A stretch of DNA of 46,468 nt from a virus. Of the stretch, positions 10,804-46,468 are shown one piece after another. Made by a program: the position numbers and the translations under genes. Under the pieces are notes generated by a model. It made no database searches and had not been told where the DNA came from. It saw nothing but the letters and a program-made list of their open reading frames with translations. How positions within the stretch are numbered: the stretch's first letter is position 1; the number at the start of each line of letters is the position of its first letter. The DNA is taken from positions 29,299 to 75,766 of IMG/VR virus record IMGVR_UViG_3300037961_006532, one strand, 5' to 3'.

Positions 10804-10811
10804 ACTATAAT

Positions 10812-14666: not shown

Positions 14667-15278
14667 TTACACCAATTCAACTAGTAATTGTGAAAATGCG
14701 AATTCGAAAGTAGTTTCGATTTCACCGGGCTCTCTATAACTATAACTAATATTACCTAAACTAACAGGAAATGCTTTAGTATACGTAAATTTAATAATAT
14801 TATTATCGAATTCATCTTTACCAAAAATAGTAAAATCTCTAGTATATAAATCGGTAGGAGTCAATGTATCTTTTTCTCTATCTTCAGGAGCTACAGTTGG
14901 TATATTAGCTAATTCTTTCTGATTAAATTTTGAAAACTTCTCATCATTAAGAAAATCTAACCATTTGTATATAGTCCAATAATTATTAAACATGTTATCT
15001 ATAGTAAAATTGACTGAAACATTATCATATGACGGTCTTACATGAGACGATACTTTTAAGGTTTGACCAGCATATCTTAAATCGTTTTCAGGTACGGCTA
15101 TAGTAGGTACCACCGTACCATAAACTGAAAACTGTAGAGATTCTCCAATTAATGAATTATTTTTTCTTCCAGCTAAATCATTTGTAGTAATTTCTTTGAG
15201 AACATCAGGTACATCAGTAACTAAAAGAAACTTATCTAATCTACTTTTATTAAATTGTGACTGGTCTATGGTTGCCAT
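14667..15278 (-). CDS. tail tube-like protein, second tube-fold copy
   Basis: A 203-residue protein with the tube-protein layout: NLTI-type strands in the middle (YDNVSVNFTIDNMFNNYWTI), KWLDFLN, and a C-terminal AFPVSLGNISYSY and TFEFAFSQLLVEL, resembling the FPTSVG...F.V..... pattern of gp19-type proteins. It sits between terminase and sheath with its start inside the terminase 3' end (13-nt overlap), and GGAT 7-10 nt upstream may help initiation. Possible roles are a tail terminator or tail completion protein (T4 gp3 or gp15 type), or a tube variant. The tube-fold reading is moderate. Confidence 0.6.
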   Translation of the reverse strand: MATIDQSQFNKSRLDKFLLVTDVPDVLKEITTNDLAGRKNNSLIGESLQFSVYGTVVPTIAVPENDLRYAGQTLKVSSHVRPSYDNVSVNFTIDNMFNNYWTIYKWLDFLNDEKFSKFNQKELANIPTVAPEDREKDTLTPTDLYTRDFTIFGKDEFDNNIIKFTYTKAFPVSLGNISYSYREPGEIETTFEFAFSQLLVELV

Positions 15279-22181: not shown

Positions 22182-25100
22182 ATGGCGTATGAACGTAAAA
22201 ATTTTAATGAATTAAGAGGTCTTAACTTTAACAGTAAAGACGACAAATTCTCTTATAAAAGTGATAAAATTATTACTAATCATGGATTCGAATATCAAAA
22301 GTATGATATGAATCTAAGTGCTAGGGACCTATTAACTAAAAATTATACTTCTAATATTTTAACAAGATTCGTAAACACTAATGAAATATTAAATTTTACT
22401 AAACTTAATATTAAAAATACGCTTAATACTAAACTTACTTTCGGTGCAACTCAAGCTATATCAGGGGAACAAGTCTTAACTACTGCTACTAATAAAAAAG
22501 ATACTGATAGCGTCTGCGTATTTGATATAGATTCTATTAATCAATTTGATAACGGGCAAAGTTTTTTAATTGATTTATTTGATAATGATTTATGTTCTAT
22601 ATCTTTTAATGATGGATTAGCAAGAAAGTATTTATTTAACTATGATGATAAAGACGTTATATTTAAATTTTTAGATAATAATGAATTATTAAATAGAAAT
22701 TTATCTGCAAAATATTTCTTTCAATATAATTATGATTCTAATAATAATATTTTAAAATTATATAATAATAATAAAATTTTAACTACTGGTGTTAGAGTTA
22801 TTTCTTCAACGTATAGAGCTTTCGATGAAGCATCTTCATCATTTGAAACTATAGTAACCACAAAAATTAAAGAAGCACCTGTACTTTCATCAATTAATTT
22901 TAAAACTTCAAGAAATGGTTTAATAAAAGTAGACCCTGCAGTATCATTAACTTTGCCTGAAAATTTAGATCAATATATTTATTATGATTTTGAAGATAAT
23001 TATAAAGTTAGCGATGATTCACTTTCAGGTATTAATTACAATATGATTAATTATTACCCGTATAGTAATATATTATTATCAGCTGTAGATTTAAGTGGTT
23101 CAAATAATAATTTTTATGTAGATTTAGATTTCTTTAATTTAAAAAATCATATATCAAATCATAATTTAATACATGGCGAAAACAAATTAGATGACCCATC
23201 TAAGCAACGTATATACTATTCATTTAGCAATAATAAAAATACCGAAGTAGCTAAAGAAAATTTATCATTAAACTACACGTTTTTTAATAAAGAGTATCAA
23301 ATATTACCTAACAGGATGAATAAGCTAATAATGCCTGATGATATAACTCCTTACAAAAAAATTAATATTAATGATACTACATTAGCTAAAAACGGAGCAT
23401 TTGCAGCTGAATCACCTTATTTTAGTGATAAAGTATTTAAATTAACTGATAAAAATAGAAATAATTTGCAAGATGAATTTACTGAGGTAGAAGATAATTT
23501 AGTTGCTAATCAAGAAGAAAGTTTTATATTACTTCAAAACGATGATATTTTAGGTTTTCAAAATATAAATGAATTACAAAAAAATGATATATTCGGAACT
23601 TATTTATGTACTTGGTTAAAAAGTAATGGTAATGATGAAGGCACATGGTTCGATAGATATTATTTACCTGAAGATAAAAGTTATGTAATATCATTAACCG
23701 GTACTAATTCATCTAATAGTTTTGATACAGTTGCTCAAGCTAAAAAATATTTTGAAAGCAACACGCCTGGCGTTTATTATGCAGATATAAAAAGTAACAT
23801 GACATTTGAACCTAATGCTGAATATTTATATCAAAGAATAGGTAAAGATTATATTAGCAATATGGTAGCTAATCAAAGCGGGTCATTAATTAAACAAAAT
23901 TTTGAAGTTGCATTAAGCGGAAAGCAAGTAGTTTCAACCGATACTATTAACTTCAACGATACAAAAGGCTTTGATAATTTTAAAATAATTGATTTAGATA
24001 GAAAGAATTTTCATATAAGTTTTGATTTATCTCTTGATAGTTTATCATCATTTAATTCATATAATGTTATAGGTAATCAATATAATGATGGGTTTTCATT
24101 AAGAAATAATTTTTATTATACTCCTTTTATTTTTATACCATTTAAGAATACTATATCTATTTTTAACAATGAATTTAATAAAGTTAATACTATTACATTA
24201 CCAGGAGTGTCTGATATATTAGATATTATTTACATTGAACAGAATAATGATATAGTAGTAATTTGTAGTAATAAAATAGTCAAAACAAACGTTTTGGGGG
24301 AAATAATAAGTGAAGTATCATTAGAAGAGAATGATAAATTTTATGCTGATAGTAATGGTCTTAAAGAAATATGCGCAGGTACAAGTGGAAGATATGCTTA
24401 TGGTGCGCAGAATTGTTTATTCTTTACTAATAACTATTATGGATCCAATTCTCAAGTTTTAAATTTAGATCTTAATAGTTTAACTATAACAGATTTAAAT
24501 ATTCCATTTAGAGAAACTTCTGCTTATAAAAGTGCTGTGACACACCCAGTTAGCGGAGTTGTACCATTAGATGGAAGAAGCCCAGTTTATGTAAATGATG
24601 AAACAGCTATAACTTTAGAAAATTCTCAACGATTTATATCTATTCAAAACATACCTGGAGAAGCTTTTGTAGGTACTGCATTACAAGGTACGTATGTATC
24701 AGGTATACCTGCTGGTACTTCATTTACAAAAGAGCAGTATGATCCTATTAATGCAGTTAGAGGTGATCCTACTTCACCTGCTGGTTATGATGAATTTTTT
24801 GTATTTAAAACTGAACGATCTAATAGAATTATATTTGACGTATTTCAGGGTGGAACTGAATTAGATCCTATTATTGATACTATTGATAGTGAGATGGATG
24901 CTATAGGAGGAATTGATAACAGAGTATATGCTATGGTATTTACTGATGGTGTAGGTAAGCTTGATGTAACTACTGATAAAAGATTTAAATTAAGTTCATT
25001 TCCAATCCAAACAGCTGCAATATCTGCAGTTGGTATTGACTTTATTCATGAAGATGGTGATTGGAAAGCATTATGCTTTTCGCAAGATATTACCGGTAAT

Positions 25101-26735
25101 ACTTTATTAGATAAAATTAATACAAATACAGGTGAAATAGAAAAGACTATAGCTTTAAATGTAAGTTCATTTTCACCTAGAGAAACTGTCATAATGAAAC
25201 CTCAAACTAAATTTGAGATGACTTCAGCTGCTTTAGGATTTAGAGCCTTAAGTTCTGTATTCGTACCTTACAATGAAAACTTTTTATCAGCTATGCCTGT
25301 ACCTTTTTCTAGTTATGATATTATAAAAAATCAAAGAATATTATTTAATGAATTTACTCAATTAGTTGCTGGTCCTGTTGATGAAGATGGAGGTAGTATC
25401 CTTACTGTAGATACATTTACAGGTAATACAGGACGTACCCCAGGGTTTTATTTAGAACAAACAGGCACAACTGACAGTGCTGTTAGTCCTAGCCCCATTG
25501 TTGGTACTTTTAAAATACATGTTAGTCAAGCTGGAGAAATATCTGCAGTAGATACATTTGCAGGAAGCTTCCGTAATGCAGTTGGGGATATTATTACTGT
25601 ACCTGATAATACTATAGGCGGTTCAGGAAACTTTACCTTTAGAGTAGCTACCACTACAACTACTAATTCAAAAGGAAATGAAATTAAAAATCACGTACTT
25701 GCAGAATTAACTCAAGCTAATAATAGCTATCTTTCTGCAAATATGTTAAGATCTACTTTTACAGGCGGTACTATAGTACAACATAAATATAGAAATCTTC
25801 AAGATAAATTAACTTTTCAAATGAAAGTTAATAATAATATTGGTATAAGAAATGATTCTATAAATTGGGACTTAGCAGGCCCTCCATTTTCAGCAACTGG
25901 GTTTGATGATTATGAATGGAATTTAAATACAGGTATAAGTCCTTTCAGTGCTTCTGTGACAAAAGCAATAACAGGGTGGTCTGGTAAATTTACTAATATT
26001 GTTACAGGTTCAGCAGCTAATTTTGAAATTAACACACCTGTACCATTTGTAAAACCTGACAATCATTTCAACTTAGATTTCAATTTAAATAATGGGTTAA
26101 TTACATTGTATAATAATGGTTTAATGTTTGGTAAATATTTTCTAAATCCATCTTTATTTCCTATGCAAAGAATATTATCACCGGATGTATTTATTAATTT
26201 ACCAGTTGTAAGAAATGAAAGTTTAAATAACATTCTTTCATCAGTTAAATTTTATTCAGATAAAGGTACAATAAGAAATTTAAAAGTATATGATAGAAGT
26301 TTGAATCAAGATTTAGTTAACTATATTGTATTAAATGATACTGATATGACTGTAGATAATTTATATTTTGACATGTATAATAATACAAGAAATAATATTG
26401 AAGAAATCGATACTATGTTTAATTATAAAATACCTGGTAGTAAAACAAACTATGGTAAAATTAGAATTAAAAATATCAATGTTAATGACGATAATATTGA
26501 AAGTTTAATTAAGTATGTACATTTAAAAATCCAAGAAAAGATTCCATCCAGTGTATTGAATTTAACATATAATGTTAACAAAGAAGATTATCATATTATG
26601 GATAATGGGCGCGTAATGAAGGGAGCAGTCCATGAAGATGAAACAGATTATTTAAATACAATTGATATATCAAATATTGATGTAAATAATATTATCGAAC
26701 AAAATAATACAACAGATAGTGGGGGAGGTTATTAA
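22182..26735 (+). CDS. very large baseplate-position structural protein, 1517 aa
   Basis: A 1517-residue protein at the T4 gp7 position after gp6, but I cannot show gp7 homology. Seen by eye: a beta-rich Asn/Asp-rich N-terminus; about 610-640 a LamG-like stretch (FHISFDLSLDSLSSFN); about 660-900 strands and GLKEI-type turns that suggest a beta-propeller (ITLPGVSDILDIIYIEQNND, VVICSNKIVKTNVLGEI); about 1070-1160 a small domain shared with the next gene (VDTFTG, GRTPGFY, GTFKIHV, ISAVDTF, GSGNFTFRVA); and another LamG-like region near 1340-1400. It is likely a peripheral baseplate or fibre-anchoring protein. It overlaps the next gene by 1 nt (TAATG). Confidence 0.65.
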   Translation: MAYERKNFNELRGLNFNSKDDKFSYKSDKIITNHGFEYQKYDMNLSARDLLTKNYTSNILTRFVNTNEILNFTKLNIKNTLNTKLTFGATQAISGEQVLTTATNKKDTDSVCVFDIDSINQFDNGQSFLIDLFDNDLCSISFNDGLARKYLFNYDDKDVIFKFLDNNELLNRNLSAKYFFQYNYDSNNNILKLYNNNKILTTGVRVISSTYRAFDEASSSFETIVTTKIKEAPVLSSINFKTSRNGLIKVDPAVSLTLPENLDQYIYYDFEDNYKVSDDSLSGINYNMINYYPYSNILLSAVDLSGSNNNFYVDLDFFNLKNHISNHNLIHGENKLDDPSKQRIYYSFSNNKNTEVAKENLSLNYTFFNKEYQILPNRMNKLIMPDDITPYKKININDTTLAKNGAFAAESPYFSDKVFKLTDKNRNNLQDEFTEVEDNLVANQEESFILLQNDDILGFQNINELQKNDIFGTYLCTWLKSNGNDEGTWFDRYYLPEDKSYVISLTGTNSSNSFDTVAQAKKYFESNTPGVYYADIKSNMTFEPNAEYLYQRIGKDYISNMVANQSGSLIKQNFEVALSGKQVVSTDTINFNDTKGFDNFKIIDLDRKNFHISFDLSLDSLSSFNSYNVIGNQYNDGFSLRNNFYYTPFIFIPFKNTISIFNNEFNKVNTITLPGVSDILDIIYIEQNNDIVVICSNKIVKTNVLGEIISEVSLEENDKFYADSNGLKEICAGTSGRYAYGAQNCLFFTNNYYGSNSQVLNLDLNSLTITDLNIPFRETSAYKSAVTHPVSGVVPLDGRSPVYVNDETAITLENSQRFISIQNIPGEAFVGTALQGTYVSGIPAGTSFTKEQYDPINAVRGDPTSPAGYDEFFVFKTERSNRIIFDVFQGGTELDPIIDTIDSEMDAIGGIDNRVYAMVFTDGVGKLDVTTDKRFKLSSFPIQTAAISAVGIDFIHEDGDWKALCFSQDITGNTLLDKINTNTGEIEKTIALNVSSFSPRETVIMKPQTKFEMTSAALGFRALSSVFVPYNENFLSAMPVPFSSYDIIKNQRILFNEFTQLVAGPVDEDGGSILTVDTFTGNTGRTPGFYLEQTGTTDSAVSPSPIVGTFKIHVSQAGEISAVDTFAGSFRNAVGDIITVPDNTIGGSGNFTFRVATTTTTNSKGNEIKNHVLAELTQANNSYLSANMLRSTFTGGTIVQHKYRNLQDKLTFQMKVNNNIGIRNDSINWDLAGPPFSATGFDDYEWNLNTGISPFSASVTKAITGWSGKFTNIVTGSAANFEINTPVPFVKPDNHFNLDFNLNNGLITLYNNGLMFGKYFLNPSLFPMQRILSPDVFINLPVVRNESLNNILSSVKFYSDKGTIRNLKVYDRSLNQDLVNYIVLNDTDMTVDNLYFDMYNNTRNNIEEIDTMFNYKIPGSKTNYGKIRIKNINVNDDNIESLIKYVHLKIQEKIPSSVLNLTYNVNKEDYHIMDNGRVMKGAVHEDETDYLNTIDISNIDVNNIIEQNNTTDSGGGY
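25390..25665 (+). repeat. shared ~90-aa domain, copy 1
   Basis: This stretch codes for about 90 residues that recur in the next gene at 28319-28590. Signatures are VDTFTG, GRTPGFY, QTGTTDS, VGTFKIHV, ISAVDTFA, VGDIITVPD and GGSGNFTFRVA. The DNA is also similar, with identical runs such as AAACTTTACCTTTAGAGT. Confidence 0.8.
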
Positions 26736-29176
26736 TGAGTTATCATAATACAGGTTCCGGATATTCTAACCAATCAAGAAATAATAATGCTAACTTAGCT
26801 AGCAATCAAGAGATTGAAGATATTTTTAAAGCATCTACTATTGTCTCTTCTTTATGTAATAGAATTGTTTATAATAAAAGATTTTATTATACTGACGGTT
26901 TTGATTTTTTATTTGAAGGACGTAACTATATAGGATATGTAAACATAGATGAAAATAATCAAGCTTGGAAGTCAAAATACGATCAAATTTTTAAAGTACT
27001 GCCATTAGAAAATACCTTTAACGATAATATATTTGACGGTAAATATTATGATACAACTATATTTTCTGATTTAGTTTTTGATTTTACATTAGACGATATT
27101 CTTTTTAAACCTAATGAATTAATAAACAAAAATTCAATAAATTATAAATTAGATAAATTATATGACAATTTTCTAAAAATTTATAATTTTTGTAATATGA
27201 GTGACCCTCTATTGCCAGACAATTTTCCAGCTTATGTTGCTTTATCATCAAATGCTTCATTTAAATCACCTAAAGAAGAGCCAGTCTTTAATCCAGGGGG
27301 AGCTGATAACAATACATTCTTTAAAGTAATAAGTACATCAGAACAGTTTTTATCAGCTGGTTCATTAGATACTAATGTTTATCCTCCATTGTCGGTTTTT
27401 GATGTTAGATTTACACATGCAGAAAATACTAGTATCGAATTTCTGAAAAGTGAAAAAGATAATAGTTTATATACTATGTTTATGACTATCAGTTCGGTTA
27501 TATATGCATTTAAATTAGATGATGATCATACAACATTTACTCAAATAGCTAGTACTCTTAACGTTGGAGGAGCTGCTAATCAAATTACTTTTGATAATAT
27601 TACAAGTCTAACAACGGACGGAAAAGATATGCTTTATGTAAATGATAATAGTAAAAATCAAATCCATAAATTATATGTAGGTACTATTATTAATGAAGAT
27701 AGAACAGGGGTAAGAGATTTTCAACATATTGATACAATTGGATCTCCAGGTAAATATAACACTAATTTAAATTCAAATGAAGCAATAGTTTATGGAGATG
27801 ATAGTGTTTATGTTTATAAACCTGATTCTTATAGTATAAGAAAATTTACTAAAGATTTTAAATTTGTTACTGAATATTTTAATGAAAGATTCTTTAAGAA
27901 TAATACTTTTAGAAATATGTCCTATAACAAATATCATAATGAAATTTGGGTTGTAACTGAAAACTTCCAAGTTTTAATATTAGATGGACCGTCGTTAACA
28001 AGATTAGATCAATTTGAATTTAACTCTAATAAGTTTGCATATACTATACCATTGATACCTAACTTTAAAGAGACACCTAGAAAGATTGAATTTTCTTCGA
28101 ATAATAGTAACATATATTATTTAGTTACTAATAAAAACGTATACAAATATTATATCAATAAGCAAAGTGAATTAATTAATAAATTTACTATTGATTTTTC
28201 ATTTGATGATCCTTACCTATGGAATACAATTTTCGATAGATGGGGATTAAGTGCTAACTTTCCTCTTTCTGCTGGTGATGGTATAACGTCTGACGATGCT
28301 AGAATAGGTAATCAATACCCAGGTGGTAGAATTGCAACTGCAGATACATTTACAGGTGCCGGGGGACGTACTCCAGGATTTTACTTTAATCAAACAGGTA
28401 CAACTGATAGCGTTGATGCTAATGTACATGTTGGTACTTTTAAGATACATGTTAATCCATCCGGAACTATATCTGCAGTAGATACATTTGCATATGGTGC
28501 TAATAATAAAGTTGGAGATGTTATAACCGTGCCTGATACTACTATTGGAGGGTCAGGAAACTTTACCTTTAGAGTTGCTTCTAAAGCTGACCCTGTTGAA
28601 TATTACACAGCTTTAGAAGGTACGCAATTATATTGGGATCAATTGCCTAATTATGATAGATTCTTCTTTGTTAACAATCCTATAGTTAGTGTTAATGACG
28701 ATATTAATAATAAAGAAACTTTATTAGTATTAGGTAATACAAGATTATTTAAATTTGTTGAAAAGAATGATAATGCTTCTTTGTTATCTGATAAGTATCC
28801 TAACTTTTATAAGAAGAGTGAGATATTTTTAGATAAAGAATTATTCAATAATATTACATTTAACTTAGCAGTATATAAACATATAACTAATTTAAATATT
28901 TTACTCCAAAATTTAAACAAAAAAGCAACAGCAAGATTTGATCAAAGTGAATATTTATTTTTTGATGATTTTAGTGAAATAAGTTATGACGCAAAGCAAA
29001 AATTTACTATTAAAGACCCAAGACAATTTTTTGTAGGCGTTAATGAAGTATTAACAGGTAATGTATTGAACAGGGTCATATCTAATTTATACAACTACCA
29101 GGAAGGAATATTAAAATTAACAGAGGTAGAAAGGATAGGTCTCCGAATACCTCCTTTATCTACTGTGTTTATTTAA
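26735..29176 (+). CDS. large baseplate-position structural protein with propeller-like region, 813 aa
   Basis: An 813-residue protein. The N-terminal 170 residues are an unknown, acidic, helical region. About 225-470 looks like an NHL-type beta-propeller: repeated ITSLTTDGKDMLYVNDNSKN, SVYVYKPDSYSIRKFTKDFK and NEIWVVTENFQVLILDGP. Residues about 528-620 hold the shared small domain also found in the preceding gene. The C-terminus is helical and conserved-looking (RQFFVGVNEVLTGN). GGAGG at 26724-26728 gives a good Shine-Dalgarno, and the ATG overlaps the previous stop, so it is the second gene of a coupled pair. It sits at the gp8 position, but homology is not shown. Confidence 0.65.
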   Translation: MSYHNTGSGYSNQSRNNNANLASNQEIEDIFKASTIVSSLCNRIVYNKRFYYTDGFDFLFEGRNYIGYVNIDENNQAWKSKYDQIFKVLPLENTFNDNIFDGKYYDTTIFSDLVFDFTLDDILFKPNELINKNSINYKLDKLYDNFLKIYNFCNMSDPLLPDNFPAYVALSSNASFKSPKEEPVFNPGGADNNTFFKVISTSEQFLSAGSLDTNVYPPLSVFDVRFTHAENTSIEFLKSEKDNSLYTMFMTISSVIYAFKLDDDHTTFTQIASTLNVGGAANQITFDNITSLTTDGKDMLYVNDNSKNQIHKLYVGTIINEDRTGVRDFQHIDTIGSPGKYNTNLNSNEAIVYGDDSVYVYKPDSYSIRKFTKDFKFVTEYFNERFFKNNTFRNMSYNKYHNEIWVVTENFQVLILDGPSLTRLDQFEFNSNKFAYTIPLIPNFKETPRKIEFSSNNSNIYYLVTNKNVYKYYINKQSELINKFTIDFSFDDPYLWNTIFDRWGLSANFPLSAGDGITSDDARIGNQYPGGRIATADTFTGAGGRTPGFYFNQTGTTDSVDANVHVGTFKIHVNPSGTISAVDTFAYGANNKVGDVITVPDTTIGGSGNFTFRVASKADPVEYYTALEGTQLYWDQLPNYDRFFFVNNPIVSVNDDINNKETLLVLGNTRLFKFVEKNDNASLLSDKYPNFYKKSEIFLDKELFNNITFNLAVYKHITNLNILLQNLNKKATARFDQSEYLFFDDFSEISYDAKQKFTIKDPRQFFVGVNEVLTGNVLNRVISNLYNYQEGILKLTEVERIGLRIPPLSTVFI
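28319..28590 (+). repeat. shared ~90-aa domain, copy 2
   Basis: Second copy of the domain in the preceding gene, with the same order of signatures (ADTFTG, GRTPGFY, QTGTTDS, VGTFKIHV, ISAVDTFA, VGDVITVPD, GGSGNFTFRVA). Its middle differs by small insertions. Confidence 0.8.
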
Positions 29177-29182
29177 TAAATA
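29175..29182 (+). promoter_or_regulatory. late-type box AATAAATA, 5-nt spacing
   Basis: AATAAATA overlapping the end of the upstream gene, then TTATT and the ATG at 29188. Confidence 0.6.
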
Positions 29183-29187
29183 TTATT

Positions 29188-30030
29188 ATGCCAGATTACG
29201 AATCATATAGAGGTAAAGCAATTGCATTAACGTTTACCAGTGTATTTAAGACAGGAGACAATAAAGAGTTACCTTTTAATACGTCTAACAGAGATGAGCC
29301 TGCGGTTTTTTCTCAAGGGGCTTTAAGATCAGTAGAGCCTAATGCATTAGCAACTATAACCGATGGAGGAGGGGTTCCGTCTTCCTTAGCTATAGGTCAA
29401 CAACATGCTGGGGTTAAAATTTTCGGTCCTACCCATATTTGTAATATAGGTACACCTTTAGGTGAACCAGGTACCGGTTGCACATATCTATGCGTTGATG
29501 GAGGTAAAGCTGTATTTACTAACAATATATCTGTTGGAGGTAATGCTGATGTAACTGGTGATATTACTGTAAATGATATCACTGCATCTGGTTGTATAAT
29601 TGGTGCTAATATATGCTCAACAGCTACTATATGCGCTGATACAACCATACAAGCAACAGGTAATATTACCTCAGGTTCAACAATACAAGGAGTTAATTTA
29701 TGTGCAACAGGCACTATACAATCAAATGGAGATATTATTGCATTTGCATCATCTGATAAAAACCTTAAAAGTAATATTAAAAAGATTCAAAATAGTAATA
29801 ATATTCTTAAAGGTATTAATGGATACACATTTGATTGGAACGAAGAAGCAGAAAGATCCGGAAGTGATTACGGGGTTATAGCTCAAGAAATTCAAGAAGT
29901 TGTACCTGAAATAGTTGTTGAAAGATCTAACGGAACTCTTGCAGTTGATTATCAAAAACTTATTCCGATTTTAATTGAAGAAGTTAAGAGCTTAAATAAT
30001 AGAATAGAAGTATTGGAGGGTAAAAAATAA
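29188..30030 (+). CDS. tail fibre/appendage protein with C-terminal S74 chaperone domain
   Basis: A 280-residue protein. Residues about 75-180 are a beta-helix-like stretch with repeated ICS.ATICADTTIQATGNI-type motifs and several Cys. The C-terminal 95 residues form a peptidase S74 intramolecular chaperone domain: FASSDKNLKSNI with the expected Ser and Lys, GYTFDWNEEAERSGSDYGVI, then AQEIQEVVPEIV and LAVDYQKLIPILIEEVKSLN with a final coiled coil. This domain trimerises the fibre and cleaves itself off. It is the first of two adjacent S74 genes. It overlaps the second by 1 nt. Confidence 0.85.
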   Translation: MPDYESYRGKAIALTFTSVFKTGDNKELPFNTSNRDEPAVFSQGALRSVEPNALATITDGGGVPSSLAIGQQHAGVKIFGPTHICNIGTPLGEPGTGCTYLCVDGGKAVFTNNISVGGNADVTGDITVNDITASGCIIGANICSTATICADTTIQATGNITSGSTIQGVNLCATGTIQSNGDIIAFASSDKNLKSNIKKIQNSNNILKGINGYTFDWNEEAERSGSDYGVIAQEIQEVVPEIVVERSNGTLAVDYQKLIPILIEEVKSLNNRIEVLEGKK

Positions 30031-30932
30031 TGGCCACTTTAGCAGGTAAAGATATAAATCAATCCTATCAAGGTTTAGTTAAAGCTATTGACAATAATGC
30101 ATTTACTGGTAAAGTTGACTTAACTGATGGTACAGGTGGAGCTCTTTCATTACAGTTAGGTAGAAAAGATTTAAATAACGGCGCTTCAGTTACTGGTAGT
30201 TTAGACACAACTGGATCAGTTACAGTAGGTACTAATTTAATAGTTAACAATACTTCGACACATACAGGTGATATTAATGCAGTAAGCGATATACATGTAT
30301 CTAATGATTTAACAATAGCAGGTAATCTTACTGCTAACTCTCCTACCTTCTTAGGTGATATGGTATTTAGAGGGCCAACCACATTATATAATACTTTGAG
30401 TGTAGTAGGTTCAACAACGTTAAGTGGATCGTTAAGTGTTGGTGGAGGTTTTGATGCATCTATTACTGGTAATCTATCATGTGATGGTGATATTATAGCA
30501 TTTGCTTCATCAGATAAAAGACTTAAAGAAAATATACAACCATTAGATTCTAAGATTTATTTTGATGAGCTTAAAGCTTATACATTTGATTGGAAAGAAG
30601 AAGCTCCATTAGCTGGAGAAGGTAAAGGATTTATTGCTCAAGAAGTTGAAAAGGTCGATCCAACATTAATAAAATTAAGCCCTTCTAATCATTTACAAGT
30701 CAATTATATAAGTTTTATTCCTATACTGTTTAATGAAGTTCAAAGTCTTAAAAAAGAAATTGAAGAATTAAAAAATGGAAATATTATTCAGGAGAACACT
30801 CCTAACAATGAAATTGAATTATTAAAGGAAGAAATATCTAATTTGAGTACTGAGTTAAAAGCATTAAAATTATGTTGTTATCCAGTATATCAACCAACTA
30901 AGAAGAGAGTTAATAGTAAGAAAAAATCTTAA
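30030..30932 (+). CDS. second tail fibre/appendage protein with S74 domain
   Basis: A 300-residue protein. The N-terminal half holds short beta repeats (GSLDTTGSVTVGTNLIV, LSGSLSVGGGF). The S74 domain begins at FASSDKRLKENI, then AYTFDWKEEAPLAGEGKGFI, AQEVEKVDPTLI and QVNYISFIPILFNEVQSL; it ends in a long helix with heptad-like Leu/Ile and a Lys-rich tail. GGAGGG at 30015-30020 is its Shine-Dalgarno. It shares the same DGDIIAFASSDK junction with the first fibre gene, including near-identical DNA. Stop shares TTAA with the convergent gene. Confidence 0.85.
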   Translation: MATLAGKDINQSYQGLVKAIDNNAFTGKVDLTDGTGGALSLQLGRKDLNNGASVTGSLDTTGSVTVGTNLIVNNTSTHTGDINAVSDIHVSNDLTIAGNLTANSPTFLGDMVFRGPTTLYNTLSVVGSTTLSGSLSVGGGFDASITGNLSCDGDIIAFASSDKRLKENIQPLDSKIYFDELKAYTFDWKEEAPLAGEGKGFIAQEVEKVDPTLIKLSPSNHLQVNYISFIPILFNEVQSLKKEIEELKNGNIIQENTPNNEIELLKEEISNLSTELKALKLCCYPVYQPTKKRVNSKKKS

Positions 30933-32290
30933 CCTAAATTTAAACTTATATCTTTAATACCCTGACCAACATAATAAGCTGTCTTCATTTGCCTAATAAA
31001 AACATTACTACCAGCAATATCAGCTACGTTAAAAGATATAGGTGGTTTTTTGAAATCAAACGTAGTTTCAGTAAAGTTAAATCCTTTCATAGCATATCCT
31101 AATGCTGTATCTTTTAGATCATCAGGTGCATGTGTTGCAGTACCAATACTGGTCGAGATTATTGAAAAGAATGGGTATGATTGTTCTAAACTTAACCCTG
31201 AAGTTCTAGTAAATCTAATAGTCTCTGAATCTACTTCAGTTAAAGAACCGGCTAATATACCCTCTCCATCTGCTGGATGGTAGAATGTTTGATCAGTAAT
31301 GTCAATATTACCATCAAAAGCGTTTAAGTTTCCACTATATGCAAAACCAATTCTTCCATATCTAGGAAATTTATTTAAGTAAGTTTCTGATGCACCTCTA
31401 CTATTCAAATCAATAGTTGAAAGAGATGCTAAATTAATATACTCTCCTCCGCTAAGTAAATCTACTCTTACGTTAGTTAAAAATGCAGAGAATTTAATTC
31501 TAAAGCTTAAACCTTGACTAAAATAAGCAGCACTTGTGTTAGGCGTGTATGTTACTTTACCAGGTACTTGAGAATAACCTGTAGATAATATAGGTAAAGA
31601 AGCAGTAGTATTACAATGTGTAGCAACTGAAAATGGTTCATCTCTACCTCTTGCTTTAGAACTTAAAGAGTCAGTTAAGATTCTATTTGTAATAGAATAA
31701 GGGGTTAAATAATCATTACCTCCGCTAGTAAAAGCAAAACCTTTTAATCCATATCCTCCTCTACCATCAATAGCAACTGAGGCAATATGATTTAAATAAG
31801 GCCTAACTCTTGTCTTACTAGGATCATAAGTATGTGTAAGTGTTTGGTAATTAGTAGTTGGATCATTATAAGTATTATTAGTAAACCCATCACCCCAGAA
31901 TACTGGTAAAAATTTAGCTCTAGGCAATCCACTAACAGAAACTAAAGTAGTAACCGATGTTGGGTCTGAAAACTGCCATAGTAAAGGTGTACCTGCTCCT
32001 CCAAAAGGAGATAAAGCAACGTTATCATCTAACCCATTTATGTTAGGCAATATACCTAAACCGTAACCTGAAGTCATAGCAGCGAATGAATCTCTAACAA
32101 ACTCATTACTATCATACATATCAGTATCAGATATAAAAATAGCGATTCCTTCTGCACTAGTAATAGGACCAGCTGTAGTAAATGATATATAATTATCTTT
32201 ATATAAATCTAAGTTATTAGATTTAAAATACACCTTACTAGTCTTTTCTGATGCAGATAATGGTACTGTCCATCCTTCGGTTACGCTCAT
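30929..32290 (-). CDS. unknown virion/surface-like protein, 453 aa
   Basis: A 453-residue beta-rich, Ser/Thr/Gly-rich protein. No family is recognised. Strand-like segments repeat (GLSFRIKFSAFLTNVRVDLL, then GYAMKGFNFTETTFDF), and GLKGFAF / AMKGFNF recur, suggesting internal duplication of a jelly-roll or lectin-like unit. A late-type box lies 5 nt before its ATG. It is a single minus-strand gene inserted after the fibre genes, so a fibre, decoration or receptor-binding role is plausible but not shown. Confidence 0.65.
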   Translation of the reverse strand: MSVTEGWTVPLSASEKTSKVYFKSNNLDLYKDNYISFTTAGPITSAEGIAIFISDTDMYDSNEFVRDSFAAMTSGYGLGILPNINGLDDNVALSPFGGAGTPLLWQFSDPTSVTTLVSVSGLPRAKFLPVFWGDGFTNNTYNDPTTNYQTLTHTYDPSKTRVRPYLNHIASVAIDGRGGYGLKGFAFTSGGNDYLTPYSITNRILTDSLSSKARGRDEPFSVATHCNTTASLPILSTGYSQVPGKVTYTPNTSAAYFSQGLSFRIKFSAFLTNVRVDLLSGGEYINLASLSTIDLNSRGASETYLNKFPRYGRIGFAYSGNLNAFDGNIDITDQTFYHPADGEGILAGSLTEVDSETIRFTRTSGLSLEQSYPFFSIISTSIGTATHAPDDLKDTALGYAMKGFNFTETTFDFKKPPISFNVADIAGSNVFIRQMKTAYYVGQGIKDISLNLG

Positions 32291-32557: not shown

Positions 32558-33465
32558 AAAAAGATAACTACGTAATTTTTAATCCTGAAGGCGGATTAGG
32601 TAAAATAATTGCATCGACAGCGCTAATAAAATATATACATAAAAAGTATCCTGACCATAAGATCATAGTTGTTACGCCTTGGGCAGAAATATATTTAAAT
32701 AACCCTAATATATATAGAGCATATAAAAATTTTAGTACACCTTATTTTTATAAAGATTATATAGAAGGAAGAGACTCAGTAGTTTTGAAAGGTGAACCGT
32801 ATTTTCAAAATGGTCACATTTATCAAAGAAATCATTTAATACAATCATGGTGTGACTTATTTAACTTAGACTATGATGGTGAAGAACCTAAACCAGAGTT
32901 ATTTTTTAATCAAGTTGAATTTGATGAGTATGCTAAAAACTTTACTTCATTCGATAAACCTGTTTTACTATTTCAAACTAATGGCGGTCCATATGAAGAT
33001 GAAAGAGGCTATTGCTGGACTAGAGACTTTCCTTTAAATCAAGCTCAAATATTAACTGATGAGTTATGTAAAGGTTATTCAGTAGTACAAGTAGCTAAAA
33101 AGAATGCTCCTAGATTACAAAATGCAACTTATATTGATGATGTCCCTAATAAAAGAACTTTTATTGCAATGTTAGCTAGATCTCAAAAACGAATATTAAT
33201 CGATAGTTGTTTGCAACATGCAGCAGCAGCATTTAACTTACCATCAACTGTATGTTGGGTAGGTACTAAACCTGAAGTTTTTGGATATAAGTTGCATAAT
33301 AATATAGTACCTAACTTACCTAAACTAGAACATGGAACTTTAGGAGTTGATAATCAATTTTTTGATTCAGATTTTAATGGACCTGAACATGAGTTTCCAT
33401 ATCCGTCAACAGATATATTTCCCCTACAAGATATATTTGATTCAATAGTTAAAGAAGAAAATTAA
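32554..33465 (+). CDS. glycosyltransferase family 9-like protein (heptosyltransferase fold)
   Basis: A 303-residue protein. The N-terminal GGLGKIIASTALIKYIHKKY and HKIIVVTPWAEIYLNNPNI match the first Rossmann half of GT9 heptosyltransferase-like enzymes. The C-terminal RILIDSCLQHAAAAFNLPST followed by VCWVGTKPEVFGY matches their (D)SG..H.A.A...P....FG.T.P donor-binding region. It would move a sugar from a nucleotide donor onto a glycan or protein, possibly altering cell surface or virion sugars. It is the second gene of a small plus-strand operon. The substrate cannot be read from the sequence. Confidence 0.7.
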   Translation: MKKDNYVIFNPEGGLGKIIASTALIKYIHKKYPDHKIIVVTPWAEIYLNNPNIYRAYKNFSTPYFYKDYIEGRDSVVLKGEPYFQNGHIYQRNHLIQSWCDLFNLDYDGEEPKPELFFNQVEFDEYAKNFTSFDKPVLLFQTNGGPYEDERGYCWTRDFPLNQAQILTDELCKGYSVVQVAKKNAPRLQNATYIDDVPNKRTFIAMLARSQKRILIDSCLQHAAAAFNLPSTVCWVGTKPEVFGYKLHNNIVPNLPKLEHGTLGVDNQFFDSDFNGPEHEFPYPSTDIFPLQDIFDSIVKEEN

Positions 33466-35057
33466 CAGCCATTATTACTGCACATAGTTCCTTCTACTTT
33501 CCCTCTAGTACAAATAAGACCGTCTTGATATCTAACAGCTCTGCAACAAGTACGATTGCTGCTACACCAATCAAAAAATGCAGTAGTAGGTAATTTTATA
33601 CACCAACCACATCCACCTGGAGGAGGGCAAACTAATTTAAAGTAAGCTGCTCCAACGCTTGTACCACATTGACCAGCTGGAGATGCAACAGTAGATGTAG
33701 CATAACAATTTCCAACTCCACCTTTCCATCTATAATTGTTATTAGCAAAAGAACAACTACAATTAACATTTAAGTATGCTGGGGCAAAATTACCTTCAAA
33801 ATTTATACACCCATTTTGAATATTACATCTTACTGCAGTATAACAAATACCAGATAATAAATTTAAAACCTGTATACCGTTCATGTAATTAAATCCAAAA
33901 TCATAACCTGTTACAGCTGGGCCTCCAGTCCACATATGACCACTTAAAGGGTCTCCTGCTATACCTATATTACAGCAATAACCAAATAAAGACCCACCGG
34001 GTCTAGAATTATTACATCTCTTTCTTTGAAAGTTTCTTAATCCAAAGAAATGCATATTAGGAGGACCTCCATATGCTCCTATATTAGGTATCATATTAGC
34101 ACACTCTTGACCTTTTGTTTTACATGAAAAGCTACAACCTTCAAAAAAGATATGCTGCATGCCATTATTTTTACAAATACTGGCGGTAGTTCCTGGTGGG
34201 TGGGTGGGAGAACTACCTAAATAAAACTTCTCCATTGCTGATAAACCATATCTAACGCAATTAGTATTACTATCCATAGGACAATAGCCTGGAGCATTAG
34301 TTACAAAACTTAAAGTTTGTGCATCGTTTCGATTTATTCTTCCTGATAATTCAACTCCGAACAAATTTACAACTTTTAAACATGTACTTGGACCGACACA
34401 ATCACCTGCTGTACTTCCGCAGCTAGTTTTAAAATTAGCTTGCATTGGAGTGAAGTCTGCAGACATACTTGGTACGTGATTAGCTCCACATCCTCCAAAA
34501 AATGTACCGTTACTATTAAATGTTTGTAAAAATCTCATATTAACAGGAAATGCAGACATCATTCCAGATAAAAATGGATTGCCTGATGCAAATAATGACC
34601 TTATATTAGGAGGAAAAGCACCAAAATTTGATCCTGATATACTATTATTTGCAGTAGGTTGATATCCAGCGCCATCATAATTAGGTTTGCAAGTATTTTG
34701 GTTTATGTTTATAGTTTTTACAGTAGACGGCATATTATCAGCATTAACACCTGTATTAATACCGTGAGAGAAATTATAATATTGACCTTTTATAAGATTA
34801 GAACTAATTTGTAAGCACTGAAAGTTTGGTTTATTACCAAGAAAAGGCAAGCATTGTGTTAAACAATTCTTTTTAAAATCAACTGCAGTTAGAGTCGTAT
34901 TATTAGTTAACCCATCTACACAATTTATATTGTTTTCTCCTAATTTTAAATTTTCTAATATAGGAAAGTCATTTACAGTAACGCATCCTCCTAGTTTAGG
35001 ATTAGAGCAACCTATTTGTATAGTTCTAACTTCAGGTGTACCTATTCTTAATTCCAT
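33462..35057 (-). CDS. cysteine-rich LRR-like protein, putative adhesin/receptor-binding protein
   Basis: A 531-residue protein with about 36 cysteines. The N-terminal part (residues about 28-90) shows leucine-rich-repeat steps (LENLKLGENNINCVDGL, TAVDFKKNCLTQCL, FQCLQISSNLIKG), then looser repeats (IRSLFASGNPFLSG, MRFLQTFNSNG). The C-terminal third has clustered Cys in Asn/Gly-rich loops (FFDWCSSNRTCC, CPPPGGCGWC). No signal peptide or membrane segment is visible. Such a disulphide-capable, LRR-like protein would suit an external fibre-tip or decoration. A late-type box is 5 nt before the ATG. No homologue family is identified beyond the LRR-like pattern. Confidence 0.65.
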   Translation of the reverse strand: MELRIGTPEVRTIQIGCSNPKLGGCVTVNDFPILENLKLGENNINCVDGLTNNTTLTAVDFKKNCLTQCLPFLGNKPNFQCLQISSNLIKGQYYNFSHGINTGVNADNMPSTVKTININQNTCKPNYDGAGYQPTANNSISGSNFGAFPPNIRSLFASGNPFLSGMMSAFPVNMRFLQTFNSNGTFFGGCGANHVPSMSADFTPMQANFKTSCGSTAGDCVGPSTCLKVVNLFGVELSGRINRNDAQTLSFVTNAPGYCPMDSNTNCVRYGLSAMEKFYLGSSPTHPPGTTASICKNNGMQHIFFEGCSFSCKTKGQECANMIPNIGAYGGPPNMHFFGLRNFQRKRCNNSRPGGSLFGYCCNIGIAGDPLSGHMWTGGPAVTGYDFGFNYMNGIQVLNLLSGICYTAVRCNIQNGCINFEGNFAPAYLNVNCSCSFANNNYRWKGGVGNCYATSTVASPAGQCGTSVGAAYFKLVCPPPGGCGWCIKLPTTAFFDWCSSNRTCCRAVRYQDGLICTRGKVEGTMCSNNGC

Positions 35058-38030: not shown

Positions 38031-38249
38031 ATGCATATAGAAATAGATAAAGAAAATAATAAATTTAAAACCTCAGTTGATATGGATAAGGTTTTAGATG
38101 ATCCATCCTTTCCAGATTATTACGTTTTACGTGAAATGAACCCACATGAACCTTATACTAAATATGAAAAGAAATATGCAGAGAAGTTAATCTCCTTTGA
38201 ATGCGCTTATCAAAACTTAGTTACAGCACAAGAACAATTAGACGTTTAA
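38031..38249 (+). CDS. unknown small protein, 72 aa
   Basis: A 72-residue charged protein (MHIEIDKENNKFKTSVDMDK) with a C-terminal helix. No family recognised. It starts directly after the terminator with no clear ribosome binding site or promoter, so expression may rely on read-through or a leaderless mRNA. Its stop shares TTAA with the convergent sulfotransferase gene. Confidence 0.55.
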   Translation: MHIEIDKENNKFKTSVDMDKVLDDPSFPDYYVLREMNPHEPYTKYEKKYAEKLISFECAYQNLVTAQEQLDV

Positions 38250-39070
38250 GAATAATCGAACCATTTAGAATAGTCAAGCTCCGGAAATAAGTCTTGGAGC
38301 TCTTTAACTGAATCACTATAATAATTAGTTAAGAATTCTATAGATTGATCGCACAATTCATTTTTATATTCTCTTTTATGAGCTCTAGAAAAGTTTTGAG
38401 ATACATCAAAGTCATCTAAACCTAACCAATTGCAGATCTTATTATACTCTTTTCTTGTATTAGCATTTGTATCTTCTTGAGTTAGTAGATATATTTTTTC
38501 TTTATCAAATAATTCTAAATATTTTTTTAAGTTTTGAGAGTATAAACTCCTAGTAACTAATCTATTAGCCCATGGGTTTTCGATTGATTCAAAAAATGAT
38601 TTACCTATATATTTTTCACCCCAGTATGGTTTATCTTGTTGGACATGATTGTAATGACTAAAAGTTCTTTTAATAGGATCACGTAAAGCGAATATTAACT
38701 TAACATCTGGAACGGCAGCTTTAATTCTATAATGTGTAAGAGGATTTTCATCTAAGTATAGATAATTAGGAGAACATTCTGCTACAACTTTCTGATGAGG
38801 AGGCCACTTTCTAAAAAATTTAAAATAACTATTTAAACCGCAATAATAATTAGAGTCAACATTAAAGAAATCCATTTCACCATTTTTACTTTTTATAGTA
38901 GCATTATCAAACTCATCATATGGATAAGAATCATCAAGTAACTGCGACATTCTTTCTTTACTATGTATATTACACATAAACATCTGCAGATGTCTTGAAA
39001 AATTAACTCTTATTGAAGTGGTGCCGCCTTTCATAGCACCTGCAATAATAAGATCAGGTTTAATAATCAT
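38246..39070 (-). CDS. sulfotransferase (PAPS-dependent)
   Basis: A 274-residue enzyme. GAMKGGTTSI at 11-20 is the 5'-phosphosulfate-binding loop with the catalytic Lys 14, AECSPNYLY at 98-106 is typical, and LIFALRDPIKRTFSHY at 125-140 is the 3'-phosphate-binding motif with Arg 130 and Ser 138. It follows the heparan/glycan sulfotransferase pattern, which uses PAPS to sulfate sugars. In a phage it could modify a virion glycan or host surface. It is driven by a late-type box 5 nt before the ATG. The acceptor is unknown. Confidence 0.85.
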   Translation of the reverse strand: MIIKPDLIIAGAMKGGTTSIRVNFSRHLQMFMCNIHSKERMSQLLDDSYPYDEFDNATIKSKNGEMDFFNVDSNYYCGLNSYFKFFRKWPPHQKVVAECSPNYLYLDENPLTHYRIKAAVPDVKLIFALRDPIKRTFSHYNHVQQDKPYWGEKYIGKSFFESIENPWANRLVTRSLYSQNLKKYLELFDKEKIYLLTQEDTNANTRKEYNKICNWLGLDDFDVSQNFSRAHKREYKNELCDQSIEFLTNYYSDSVKELQDLFPELDYSKWFDYS

Positions 39071-40899: not shown

Positions 40900-40995
40900 C
40901 AGTTACCTAACATCAAACAAATTGATTCTCCGTTAATCTCACAATGGGGATTCTCAAGAAATCCTTAAAAACATTAAATTTTATGAAAAAACAAC

Positions 40996-41082
40996 GCTCA
41001 TGTGGTGAAATTGGTAAACACAACAGACTTAAAATCTGTCGACTGCAAAGTCTTGCTGGTTCAAGTCCGGCCATGAGTACCA
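40996..41082 (+). tRNA. tRNA-Leu (anticodon UAA)
   Basis: An 87-base tRNA with acceptor stem GCTCATG/CATGAGT, anticodon loop CTTAAAA (UAA), long variable arm as expected for Leu, T-arm with GGTTCAAGTCC, and an encoded CCA. It decodes UUA, the most used Leu codon in this AT-rich phage. Confidence 0.92.
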
Positions 41083-41086
41083 TTAA

Positions 41087-41163
41087 GCGCCAGTAGCTCA
41101 GTTGGATAGAGCAACGGTTTTCTAAACCGTTGGTCGCAGGTTCGAGTCCTGCCTGGCGTACCA
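41087..41163 (+). tRNA. tRNA-Arg (anticodon UCU)
   Basis: A 77-base tRNA with acceptor stem GCGCCAG/CTGGCGT, D-loop CAGTTGGATAGAG, anticodon loop TTTCTAA (UCU), T-arm AGGTTCGAGTCCT, and an encoded CCA. It decodes AGA, common here. The next convergent gene begins at 41164, with no gap. Confidence 0.93.
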
Positions 41164-41907
41164 TTATTTTTCTAATAACATTTTAGTCTTATTTCCTTCC
41201 CAGTTATGGGCTTGAGGAGATAAATGCACACAGTTAATATTATCGAAACACTTTACCGAGTTAAAAAGTTTAGTAAAAAGCAAATCATCAAAGCCTGCAT
41301 TACAAGACATTTCTGGATATACATAAGGTCTTAAACTTTGATAGGTTTGTCTTAAAGCAGTCATATGAAACATTTGAAAATATCCCCAACCTAAATTGCC
41401 TTGTTTGCCTGAATAACCGTGTAAGTTCATATTGTAAAATGCTTCCTTAATACGTTGTCTTGACGTTTCTACATTACCTCCATCACGAGGAAGTGTTACA
41501 TCAAATCTATTCATACAGTAAAGATTTCTTCTAACTAATGTATCTAATTTATAATAATTATAATCATCATTTAACTTAAAATTACCATCAATAAATTCTC
41601 TAAAATTATTAGGTAAAACTATATCAGAATCGATATGAATAAACCATTCATTACAACCCGGAACGTATAAATGATCTAAACCTCTATTGATTGCAGTACC
41701 TTTACGTAACGCACTTCTATATAAATATAATCTTCTTTCATTTGCAAATACATATTCAACACCATGTTCTTTGCATAACTCTATCGTTCTAATATCATTT
41801 TCAACAGTTACAACTACCCATCTATCAAAGTGCTTTTTATTAGCTTCAATACAATATTTGAAGTAATCAGAATAGTCTATACAAACGGAAACTGCATTTA
41901 TAATCAT
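41164..41907 (-). CDS. GT-A fold glycosyltransferase-like protein
   Basis: A 247-residue protein. The N-terminus shows alternating strands and helices, RKGTAINRGLDHL at 69-80, then the DXD metal/donor motif FIHIDSDIVLP at 89-99, and GWGYFQMFH followed by NAGFDDLLFTKLF in the acceptor region. The C-terminal CVHLSPQAHNWEGNK is common in this type. It would transfer a sugar from a nucleotide donor. It is a single minus-strand gene with a late-type box 5 nt upstream. Acceptor unknown; virion or host surface modification is inferred. Confidence 0.75.
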   Translation of the reverse strand: MIINAVSVCIDYSDYFKYCIEANKKHFDRWVVVTVENDIRTIELCKEHGVEYVFANERRLYLYRSALRKGTAINRGLDHLYVPGCNEWFIHIDSDIVLPNNFREFIDGNFKLNDDYNYYKLDTLVRRNLYCMNRFDVTLPRDGGNVETSRQRIKEAFYNMNLHGYSGKQGNLGWGYFQMFHMTALRQTYQSLRPYVYPEMSCNAGFDDLLFTKLFNSVKCFDNINCVHLSPQAHNWEGNKTKMLLEK

Positions 41908-43193: not shown

Positions 43194-43303
43194 CTGAACT
43201 AATGATAGATCTTATGACAATAGATAACTATGAATGGATTTGGTTAATTGTTCTTGCTTTACCTGCTTGGTTTTATTACGCTTATATTACGTTTAAAGAT
43301 TAA
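43184..43303 (+). CDS. small membrane protein, 39 aa
   Basis: A 39-residue protein whose second half is a hydrophobic segment (WIWLIVLALPAWFYYAYI). Starts within the end of the previous gene (10-nt overlap), and its stop shares TTAA with the convergent large gene. Function unknown. Confidence 0.45.
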   Translation: MDVTELMIDLMTIDNYEWIWLIVLALPAWFYYAYITFKD

Positions 43304-46300
43304 AGTTCAGTTACTTTACCTTGCGGAGTCACATCTGGAATAGTTACATTAGCAGTTTGTAACTGATATCTAGGAGTACCTGCATTATCACTTAAAGCAT
43401 TCATAGCTGCTTGTATATCATCAAACATTTCTTTTGTAAAAGTTCTAGTTCTCATATTTGTATTAGCATTAATTTGATTAGCATTTTCAAATGTATAATC
43501 ATCAGGTTCCATTGCGTTATTATCATCGTTCATGAACGTTGTAACTCTTCTAAGATTATGTGAATTAGCTTCTGTGTTTCCGTTTAAATATTCAATATCT
43601 GGGTATGTAGATGAAATAAATTCACTGCTTAATAAGTCATTATCTACACCAAATTTTTTAATATAATTAAATTCATCATCAGGTGTTTGTTGAGCTAAAC
43701 CTAAAAATACTAACTCTTTTCCATGTATAGCGAATATAGGTGAACTTGAATCTCCAATTCTGTCCCAATATTCATCAAAGTAAGCCGAACTCCATTTAAA
43801 GTTATCTTGCTTCCATTGAGGGAATTTAGCCCCGGTATTTACTCTATATTGTAATTGATTAGTACTAAAATTGCATTGATTAATATAAACTTTATGTGTT
43901 TTACCTACCATTAATCCCCAGAAATCAAAATCATATTTTATACCTTCATTAAAAGTTGAAATGAACGTGTTATCGATTGATGATGTTGCCTTATCAAATG
44001 TTGCTGTATATTTTCCATCAACATTTAATTTAATTTCAGGTAATAAATCTCTAGGTAAAAATTTTACTGTATCAATTCCACTTAATGTTATTTCTTCATC
44101 TAAATGAAAAATACTGTAATCATTTAATTGAGTAGAGGTATCTTCTAACCCAATAGTATAATTAGTACCGTCGAAAGTAAAAGATCCAGTACCACCTTCA
44201 ATACTATAATAAGCCCCATTTGTTAATTCACTAGATGATAAATCACAATATGAAGTTGTACCTACTATTTGAAATTCGTTATTCATATTCATGAAAGGAA
44301 TTTTTACATCACCGCCATTCCATCTACTATTCGGAAAATCATCTCTTATGTGTTTTACAGTCATAACATGTCTAGGAGATAATAAAACAAATCTTGTTCT
44401 AAATGCTTGGACATTAGCTAATGTCGATACACATGTAATAGGTTGATAATTAAACCACATATCAGGGTTTCTTTTTACATGATATTGAGAGACATGAAGA
44501 TCATCCCAGTAAGGATAACCTTGATTAGATTCATGAGTAGGAGGACTTCCTACTTTACGAGATAAATAGTTAGTTGTAGAATTTATAGGATCAAAATTTA
44601 AAGCACTAACATTTTTATTTTCAGTAGAAGCACTTAATGATAATGCATAACTTCCATTTACAGTTCTTACTAAAGGAGTACCTGCACTTAAACCGTGCAT
44701 AGTAGATGATAAACTTAATAATCCTAATGAAGACCAATCTGCAGTTTTATTATCTAATGCATCCCTTACGATACTATCGTCAAACGGACTATCTACTATC
44801 ATTTTATACCCTTTAGGTTGTCTTTTAGACCACATTGGGTTATCAAATAATCTACGTTTTTCAAGTATAGGAGGGTTACCGACACCTCTATTTCTATATT
44901 CTACATTAGCGTTTTCAAAAAATGTAGTAATGCCTGCAGATAAATTAGTTTCGTCATATTGATAATCACTTATCTGAGGGTTAGTAGTCAATCCATACTT
45001 TACATGTCTTATTCTATCGTCATAAGAATTAGTGCCTATATTTTCAGTATAAAATCCTGTTAAAGGTGCATCATCAGTAAATTGAGTTAATGGAAAATGG
45101 TATAAATCTCCTTTTATATTAGTACCGATTTTCATATCATAAACTTTACCGAAAAAGTCTAATTGATTCTCTGCATAAGGAATTTTAAAAGGTGCATCTC
45201 CAAATGGATTAGTAAAAGGAAATTCAAGACTATTTATACCTGTTATCCAATCAAATGATTTTTTACCATCAGTTCTTAAATTACTTGCTCCCACTGCAGG
45301 GTCATTGGTTGATATAGCGTTTGTATGTGTATAACCGTAAACTATTTTATGATGATCATATACTAATGAATTAGGCCCTCCTGATATATAATGATTAGTA
45401 AGCTCTGACCCATTCATGAAGAGAGATACTATATTACCTTCAGACCCTTCAGGTTTAATAACCGATCTAAAAGTGTATTTATTATTAGATGATTCATCAT
45501 ATAATGCACTTAATCTTAAATAAGTTGTATTACGAAATCTTTCATATAAAAAATATGCAAGTATGCCCCTCGGTATGTCGGGGTTTGCAGATGCTGCTGT
45601 AAACTGAACTGATCTTTGCCTGGGGTTTACAATCATTGAATGTTTACCATATGCAGATAATGAAGGAATATAGTTTACATAATTAAAAAATAAAAAGTTA
45701 GACTCATGATTAGTATCAGGTTCAAATGAAAATTCCCAATAATGTTCATGCGCACTATACGATTCATTAACCATTGATAATGGATATCCTATATCTTTAT
45801 ATTCATTATAAAGTTCTATACTACTCCAATCAGCTGGATTAGGTATTGCTTCACCCCAAGTTTGATTATAAGTCTGATTAAAGTATTTTTTAGAATAAAA
45901 ACTACCTAAAGGATATTGCCCTGTCTTTCTAGCAAAATTAGTACTACTATCATCTGGATAAGCATGACATTGAAACCCTAAATTACTAAACTTTAACCCG
46001 TAATCAGTAGTATTAGCCCCTCCTAGATAAGCAAAATATGGCCCTGGTATTTGTGCATCAGCTGCTCCTGAACCTCCTTCTTCAGTAGTTTCTGGATCAG
46101 GATCAGGATTTCGATCTCTATTTTCTAATAAGACTTTTCTAGATTGAACTGCAGTATTAGTTTTTAAATTATAAAATCTATCATACATTTCATTAGTCTC
46201 TCTATTCATTTCTCTAAACACTAAAACGTTATCATTAATTTGCCATTTAAGTAAATTATGCGTCCATTGAATATTAGTTACGTTCCCATCAGAGGCTCTA

Positions 46301-46468
46301 ACTAATAGTCTATTAGTTTCATAATTAGGTTGAACAGAATAAGTTACGACAGGTTCAGGTTTTAAATCGATAATATTTTCATAAATTAATTTTTTATCTA
46401 TAGTAGTTTTATTATCAATAATAACTTGACGCTCTTTATAATGCTTTTGATCTCTATCATACTTTACT
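43300..46468 (-). CDS. large virion-like protein with trypsin-like protease domain, 5'-truncated
   Basis: The frame is open from the right window edge (46467) through at least 1055 residues to a TAA at 43300-43302, so the N-terminus is missing. A GTG at 46221 is in frame but the 82 codons upstream show no stop, so it is not taken as the start. LSPRHVMTVKHI holds the expected catalytic His (codon 44350-44352), NDYSIFHL the Asp (44119-44121), and GDSSSPIF the Ser (43747-43749), spaced 77 and 124 residues apart, in the order of a chymotrypsin-fold protease. Upstream lies a beta-rich, LamG-like region (KVYDMKIGTNIKGDLYHFPL). It may process virion proteins or cut host surface proteins. The call is moderate; the serine loop GDSSSP differs from the usual GDSGGP. 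Confidence 0.7.
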   Translation of the reverse strand, partial: VKYDRDQKHYKERQVIIDNKTTIDKKLIYENIIDLKPEPVVTYSVQPNYETNRLLVRASDGNVTNIQWTHNLLKWQINDNVLVFREMNRETNEMYDRFYNLKTNTAVQSRKVLLENRDRNPDPDPETTEEGGSGAADAQIPGPYFAYLGGANTTDYGLKFSNLGFQCHAYPDDSSTNFARKTGQYPLGSFYSKKYFNQTYNQTWGEAIPNPADWSSIELYNEYKDIGYPLSMVNESYSAHEHYWEFSFEPDTNHESNFLFFNYVNYIPSLSAYGKHSMIVNPRQRSVQFTAASANPDIPRGILAYFLYERFRNTTYLRLSALYDESSNNKYTFRSVIKPEGSEGNIVSLFMNGSELTNHYISGGPNSLVYDHHKIVYGYTHTNAISTNDPAVGASNLRTDGKKSFDWITGINSLEFPFTNPFGDAPFKIPYAENQLDFFGKVYDMKIGTNIKGDLYHFPLTQFTDDAPLTGFYTENIGTNSYDDRIRHVKYGLTTNPQISDYQYDETNLSAGITTFFENANVEYRNRGVGNPPILEKRRLFDNPMWSKRQPKGYKMIVDSPFDDSIVRDALDNKTADWSSLGLLSLSSTMHGLSAGTPLVRTVNGSYALSLSASTENKNVSALNFDPINSTTNYLSRKVGSPPTHESNQGYPYWDDLHVSQYHVKRNPDMWFNYQPITCVSTLANVQAFRTRFVLLSPRHVMTVKHIRDDFPNSRWNGGDVKIPFMNMNNEFQIVGTTSYCDLSSSELTNGAYYSIEGGTGSFTFDGTNYTIGLEDTSTQLNDYSIFHLDEEITLSGIDTVKFLPRDLLPEIKLNVDGKYTATFDKATSSIDNTFISTFNEGIKYDFDFWGLMVGKTHKVYINQCNFSTNQLQYRVNTGAKFPQWKQDNFKWSSAYFDEYWDRIGDSSSPIFAIHGKELVFLGLAQQTPDDEFNYIKKFGVDNDLLSSEFISSTYPDIEYLNGNTEANSHNLRRVTTFMNDDNNAMEPDDYTFENANQINANTNMRTRTFTKEMFDDIQAAMNALSDNAGTPRYQLQTANVTIPDVTPQGKVTEL

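Follow-up and report, generated by a model that had tools for sequence, protein, structure and literature searches.

What is the large protein encoded at the end of this virus contig, does it carry a trypsin-like protease, and on what would such an enzyme act? The window, the whole stretch of 46,468 nucleotides analyzed here, comprises bases 29299 to 75766 of a 75.8-kb virus contig, and a single open frame of 1,055 aa occupies 43300 to 46467 on the minus strand (stop codon, 43300 to 43302). The frame is open at its N terminus because the contig ends there; judged by a full-length homologue, about 40 N-terminal residues are absent from the window copy, in agreement with the original prediction of a protein longer than 1,055 residues. 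The product, presumably a late protein with a serine protease-like domain, can be divided into four parts on the minus strand: a near-invariant N-terminal module proposed to attach to the virion (aa 1 to 140; 46048 to 46467), a central diverging region with no match in Pfam, PHROGs, or NCBIfam (aa 141 to 660; 44488 to 46047), a proposed chymotrypsin-like protease domain delimited by block profile and conservation (aa 676 to 930; 43678 to 44442), and a C-terminal tail, partly conserved in the homologue as DDIQAAMN.LSD..GT.RY.LQ (43303 to 43443).

Three motifs had been predicted to supply the His, Asp, and Ser of a chymotrypsin-fold protease, and all three are present, in frame, and in the order found in trypsin. 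On the minus strand, the His motif, LSPRHVMTVKHI (aa 696 to 707; 44347 to 44382), holds the proposed catalytic H706 (44350 to 44352); the Asp block, NDYSIFHLDEEITLSGIDTVKFLP (44053 to 44124), opens with NDYSIFHL (aa 782 to 789; 44101 to 44124) and holds the proposed D783 (44119 to 44121); and the Ser motif, GDSSSPIF (aa 905 to 912; 43732 to 43755), holds the proposed nucleophile S907 (43747 to 43749). The order is as predicted, but the spacing is not, since the H-D and D-S distances of 77 and 124 residues are both longer than in classical trypsin. Like the S1 (chymotrypsin/trypsin) peptidases of clan PA, the domain shows the H-D-S order, LxxxxVxTxxH-like, NDxxxxxL...LP, and GDSxxP blocks, and a hydrophobic strand pattern past the Ser motif; unlike them, it has these longer spacings, reads TVKH for TAAH and GDSSSP for GDSGGP, is embedded in a protein of more than 1,055 aa, and has no Pfam trypsin match. 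The PROSITE-type S1 signatures are [LIVM]-[ST]-A-[STAG]-H-C and GDSG[GS]; the window protein instead reads MTVKHI and GDSSSP, where V and K in place of A, and S in place of G, are unusual, and keeps the oxyanion-hole Gly and the catalytic Ser. By strict membership rules it is not filed under S1, and it would be S1-like in its working if the proposed fold holds.

Likeness to trypsin was scored with an ungapped three-block profile (His, Asp, and Ser) put together by hand from S1A trypsins, both bacterial proteins and solved structures, and each protein was scanned for its best ordered triple of blocks. The window protein gave 27.5 bits, exactly at H706, D783, and S907; none of 3,000 shuffled versions scored as high (mean, 11.0 bits; SD, 3.4 bits), which corresponds to a z of 4.9. 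The homologue, designated L001, gave 26.4 bits at H747, D803, and S920, a score equaled by 2 of 3,000 shuffles (z, 5.1). The trypsins that built the profile score high by construction; HtrA proteases, which were left out of its building, mostly gave 15 to 29 bits, the same range as the window protein and L001, and the top ORF without a known protease identity, among 218 ORFs scanned, reached 19.6 bits, below both. The Asp block has the 24-residue ND...LP length of solved trypsins, for example, NDIMLIKLSKPASLNSYVSTVALP. The top local match from hhalign between the two-member profile and trypsins placed LLSPRHVMTVKH over LVTPEWVVTAAH, with catalytic His on catalytic His, at a low probability (<6% whenever the window domain was part of the profile compared with the trypsin sets). 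It is unlikely that the three motifs arose by chance.

L001, from contig IMGVR_UViG_3300030451_005897 (2205 to 5372; 1,055 aa), is 57% identical to the window protein and was the sole full-length homologue found, so that the evidence from conservation rests on two sequences. All three catalytic residues are retained (H747, D803, and S920), the Ser motif as GDSS.P.F. Within the proposed domain (here aa 661 to 930), identity is 76% in the motif blocks and 32% in the other parts; besides IPFMNMNNEF, the longest identical runs are FVLLSPRHVM, DYSIFHL, VKFLPRD, and HIRDDF, all of which lie inside the His and Asp motif blocks. Over the protein as a whole, DNA encoding aa 1 to 140 is 86 to 90% identical and DNA downstream 56 to 72% identical, and aa 81 to 120 are 100% identical in protein sequence. 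A conserved N-terminal anchor followed by a diverging distal part, the arrangement looked for in fibers and spikes, is found in this pair; a nearly fixed N terminus with a diverging remainder resembles the pattern of adsorption proteins.

Other relatives were sought by several routes. No further homologues of the N terminus, middle, or C terminus were found within the proteins' own contigs, a PFMNMN pattern scan of 49 contigs found no relative, and a profile (A3) run against 299 genomes of one phylum, an uninformative sample, gave no match. A tail fiber of marine virus AG-345-F15 (E value, 4) lacked the triad and an Elusimicrobia sequence (L017; E value, 0.0025) contained no protease-like ORF, and both were set aside as chance matches; pattern matches in bacterial genomes (L009 to L012) revealed no trypsin-like protein. 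The window protein did not match Pfam PF00089 (Trypsin) or PF13365 (Trypsin_2), even at an E value of 10, nor protease chains of the PDB in a sequence search. Nothing resembling the large protein was found in Pfam, PHROGs, or NCBIfam, and phage records gave no match. The LamG-like regions of the original prediction were not recovered: neither the window protein nor its homologue matched a LamG or concanavalin family in Pfam, and PHROGs and NCBIfam gave none. AlphaFold models built from two or three aligned sequences had pLDDT values of 27 and 31 and matched no protease, a low confidence that reflects the few relatives available; a Foldseek search with such a model gave no significant match, as expected. 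AlphaFold and Foldseek thus yielded no usable model, and we therefore infer the chymotrypsin-like fold, and with it protease activity, from sequence.

The His motif alone, used as a DNA pattern (SPRHV..A.HV), matched one viral contig, IMGVR_UViG_3300032312_000346 (L008). The matching ORF (9529 to 10815, minus strand; 428 aa) also encodes YDIWVGYL and GGDSGSPTF, which follow the His at distances of 33 and 155 residues, respectively, and lies between major head protein and tail fiber genes, in a virion gene module; its product has no counterpart in Pfam, PHROGs, or NCBIfam. It shares with the window domain the SPRHV His motif followed by Asp and GDSGSP motifs, but it is smaller, it belongs to another type of phage, and the likeness is at the level of motifs only (phmmer E value, 0.48). 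The trypsin-type arrangement of the triad is supported by the block profile, by motif-selective conservation in L001, and by this independent phage protein, although not by a Pfam trypsin match.

The terminase of the window phage is 36 to 38% identical to those of T4-like phages of Sinorhizobium and Synechococcus, with phiM9 as the best match, and sheath, tube-like, neck, and baseplate proteins accompany it. These proteins mark the source as a divergent T4-like myovirus. Three different proteins (9383 to 10219, 10258 to 10803, and 14667 to 15278, minus strand) each match the tail tube family phrog_45 and are possibly tube paralogues or tube-like proteins.

Is the large protein part of the particle, as its description as virion-type implied? 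The gene start in L001 reads ctataaatattcataATG, with TATAAATA, the T4 late promoter, directly before the start codon; the promoter is seen in L001 only, the window copy being without its gene start. TAAATA lies within 26 nt of starts at 17 of 32, 5 of 8, and 8 of 11 genes in stretches with structural genes, compared with 2 of 15 replication-side genes and 2 to 3% of random positions. Across the window, L001, L051, and L052, late genes show strong enrichment over replication-side genes for a T4-type late promoter (TATAAATA or TAAATA) immediately ahead of their starts, a feature that could serve in annotation. The promoter in L001 and the TAAATA enrichment therefore place the large protein in the late set, with the sheath, baseplate, and fiber genes. 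Its gene, however, is outside the structural cluster, about 10 kb from the tail genes and amid small early-type genes, and away from the fiber cluster at 22182 to 30932; no significant PHROG match links the protein to a known fiber family. The virion-type description is favored by the late promoter and by the invariant N terminus with its diverging distal part, and is weakened by gene position; we consider that the protein is probably carried on the virion.

Several other minus-strand features were noted in the window. A sulfotransferase gene (38246 to 39070; Pfam PF13469, E value of 1e-12, and PF00685) has a late-type TAAATA before its start; if made alongside the virion proteins, the enzyme might act on glycans of the virion or of the host surface. 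A 247-aa protein (41164 to 41907) has no family match, a late-type motif upstream, and a DxD-like motif, HIDSDIVLP, recognized by eye, which is suggestive of a GT-A glycosyltransferase. The neighboring ORF at 40913 to 41164 (MVRQAGLEPATNGLENRCSIQLSY...) runs antisense to two tRNA genes, Leu-taa (40996 to 41082) and Arg-tct (41087 to 41163), and is therefore probably not a gene. Two large proteins of 453 and 531 aa (30929 to 32290 and 33462 to 35057) have late-type motifs and no family match; the corresponding part of a related contig encodes a leucine-rich-repeat-like protein (L051, 1262 to 2593).

Trypsin-like proteins have precedents among viruses. Gene 102 of the T4-like Sinorhizobium phage phiM9, which adjoins gp23, is annotated as a trypsin-like serine protease (PMC10783043). 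It resembles the present case as a trypsin-like protein in a T4-like phage, but it is a stand-alone protein of 230 aa beside gp23 with a GMSGG motif, and it has no detectable sequence relation to the window domain (block score, 11.5). In another case (PMC6563490), a chymotrypsin-like domain likewise forms part of a larger structural protein of a virus, but there it is tied to capsid maturation; it is likened here by description only. Our literature search, outside of which subscription papers mostly fell, found no paper on a fiber-type phage protein with a trypsin-like domain.

We propose that the protein is a late, probably virion-borne adsorption protein of fiber or spike type from a divergent T4-like myovirus, with a divergent chymotrypsin-like protease domain (triad H706-D783-S907) that would act most likely on a host surface protein, a reading to which we give about an even chance. 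The conserved N terminus would dock the large protein on the particle, the central region would give reach or binding, and the protease domain would act outside the cell, cutting a host surface protein at adsorption; such clipping may be compared with the action of glycan depolymerases on capsules. The substrate, host surface or fiber, is where the main rival differs. The protease could act on the phage itself, trimming its own chain inside the infected cell as particles are assembled, for example, in C-terminal release or fiber maturation; we regard this as rather unlikely. A single polypeptide contains both the protease and a long accompanying chain, some 120 aa that include the partly conserved tail lie beyond the protease domain, and self-cleaving phage fibers are a known precedent, but comparison of the two sequences identified no conserved cleavage site. 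A role as capsid maturation protease or its helper is less likely and, in our estimate, very improbable. The T4-type prohead protease (S77, PF03420) has no match in the two contigs searched (G000 and G001), but these are fragments also without a recognizable gp23, so its absence says little; moreover, neither the position of the gene, a single late gene remote from capsid genes, nor the fast-diverging distal part of its product suits a maturation enzyme.

The remaining alternatives concern whether the domain is a protease at all. A chymotrypsin fold in which protease function was lost or never present, serving as a binding domain with remnants of the motifs, would accommodate the unusual His and Ser motif variants and the lack of any family match; we think it improbable, given that all three triad residues, with the sequence flanking them, are the best-kept parts of a domain otherwise 32% identical. 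Chance resemblance in a protein of some other fold could appeal to the missing Pfam and PDB matches and to the pLDDT values, but the shuffles rarely or never reached the observed scores in either protein, identical residues were picked in both homologues, and conservation is centered on the motifs, so that we hold this to be quite improbable.

To our knowledge, nearly all of the enzymes with which virions gain access to the host degrade glycan or peptidoglycan. The window gene appears to be turned on with the genes of the virus particle, and the phage may therefore carry a protease on its particle. We also entertain, tentatively and with some doubt, a broader possibility: that a particle-borne chymotrypsin-like protease serves as a protein depolymerase cutting a proteinaceous surface layer or receptor, and founds a family of virion proteases that current libraries do not contain, represented separately in the T4-like lineage and in the L008 phage. 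Because Pfam, PHROGs, and NCBIfam do not detect the domain, similar ones would be missed in routine annotation. A particle-borne protease, if true, would offer a different route across the host surface, and it would account for the way in which some phages handle protein surface layers.
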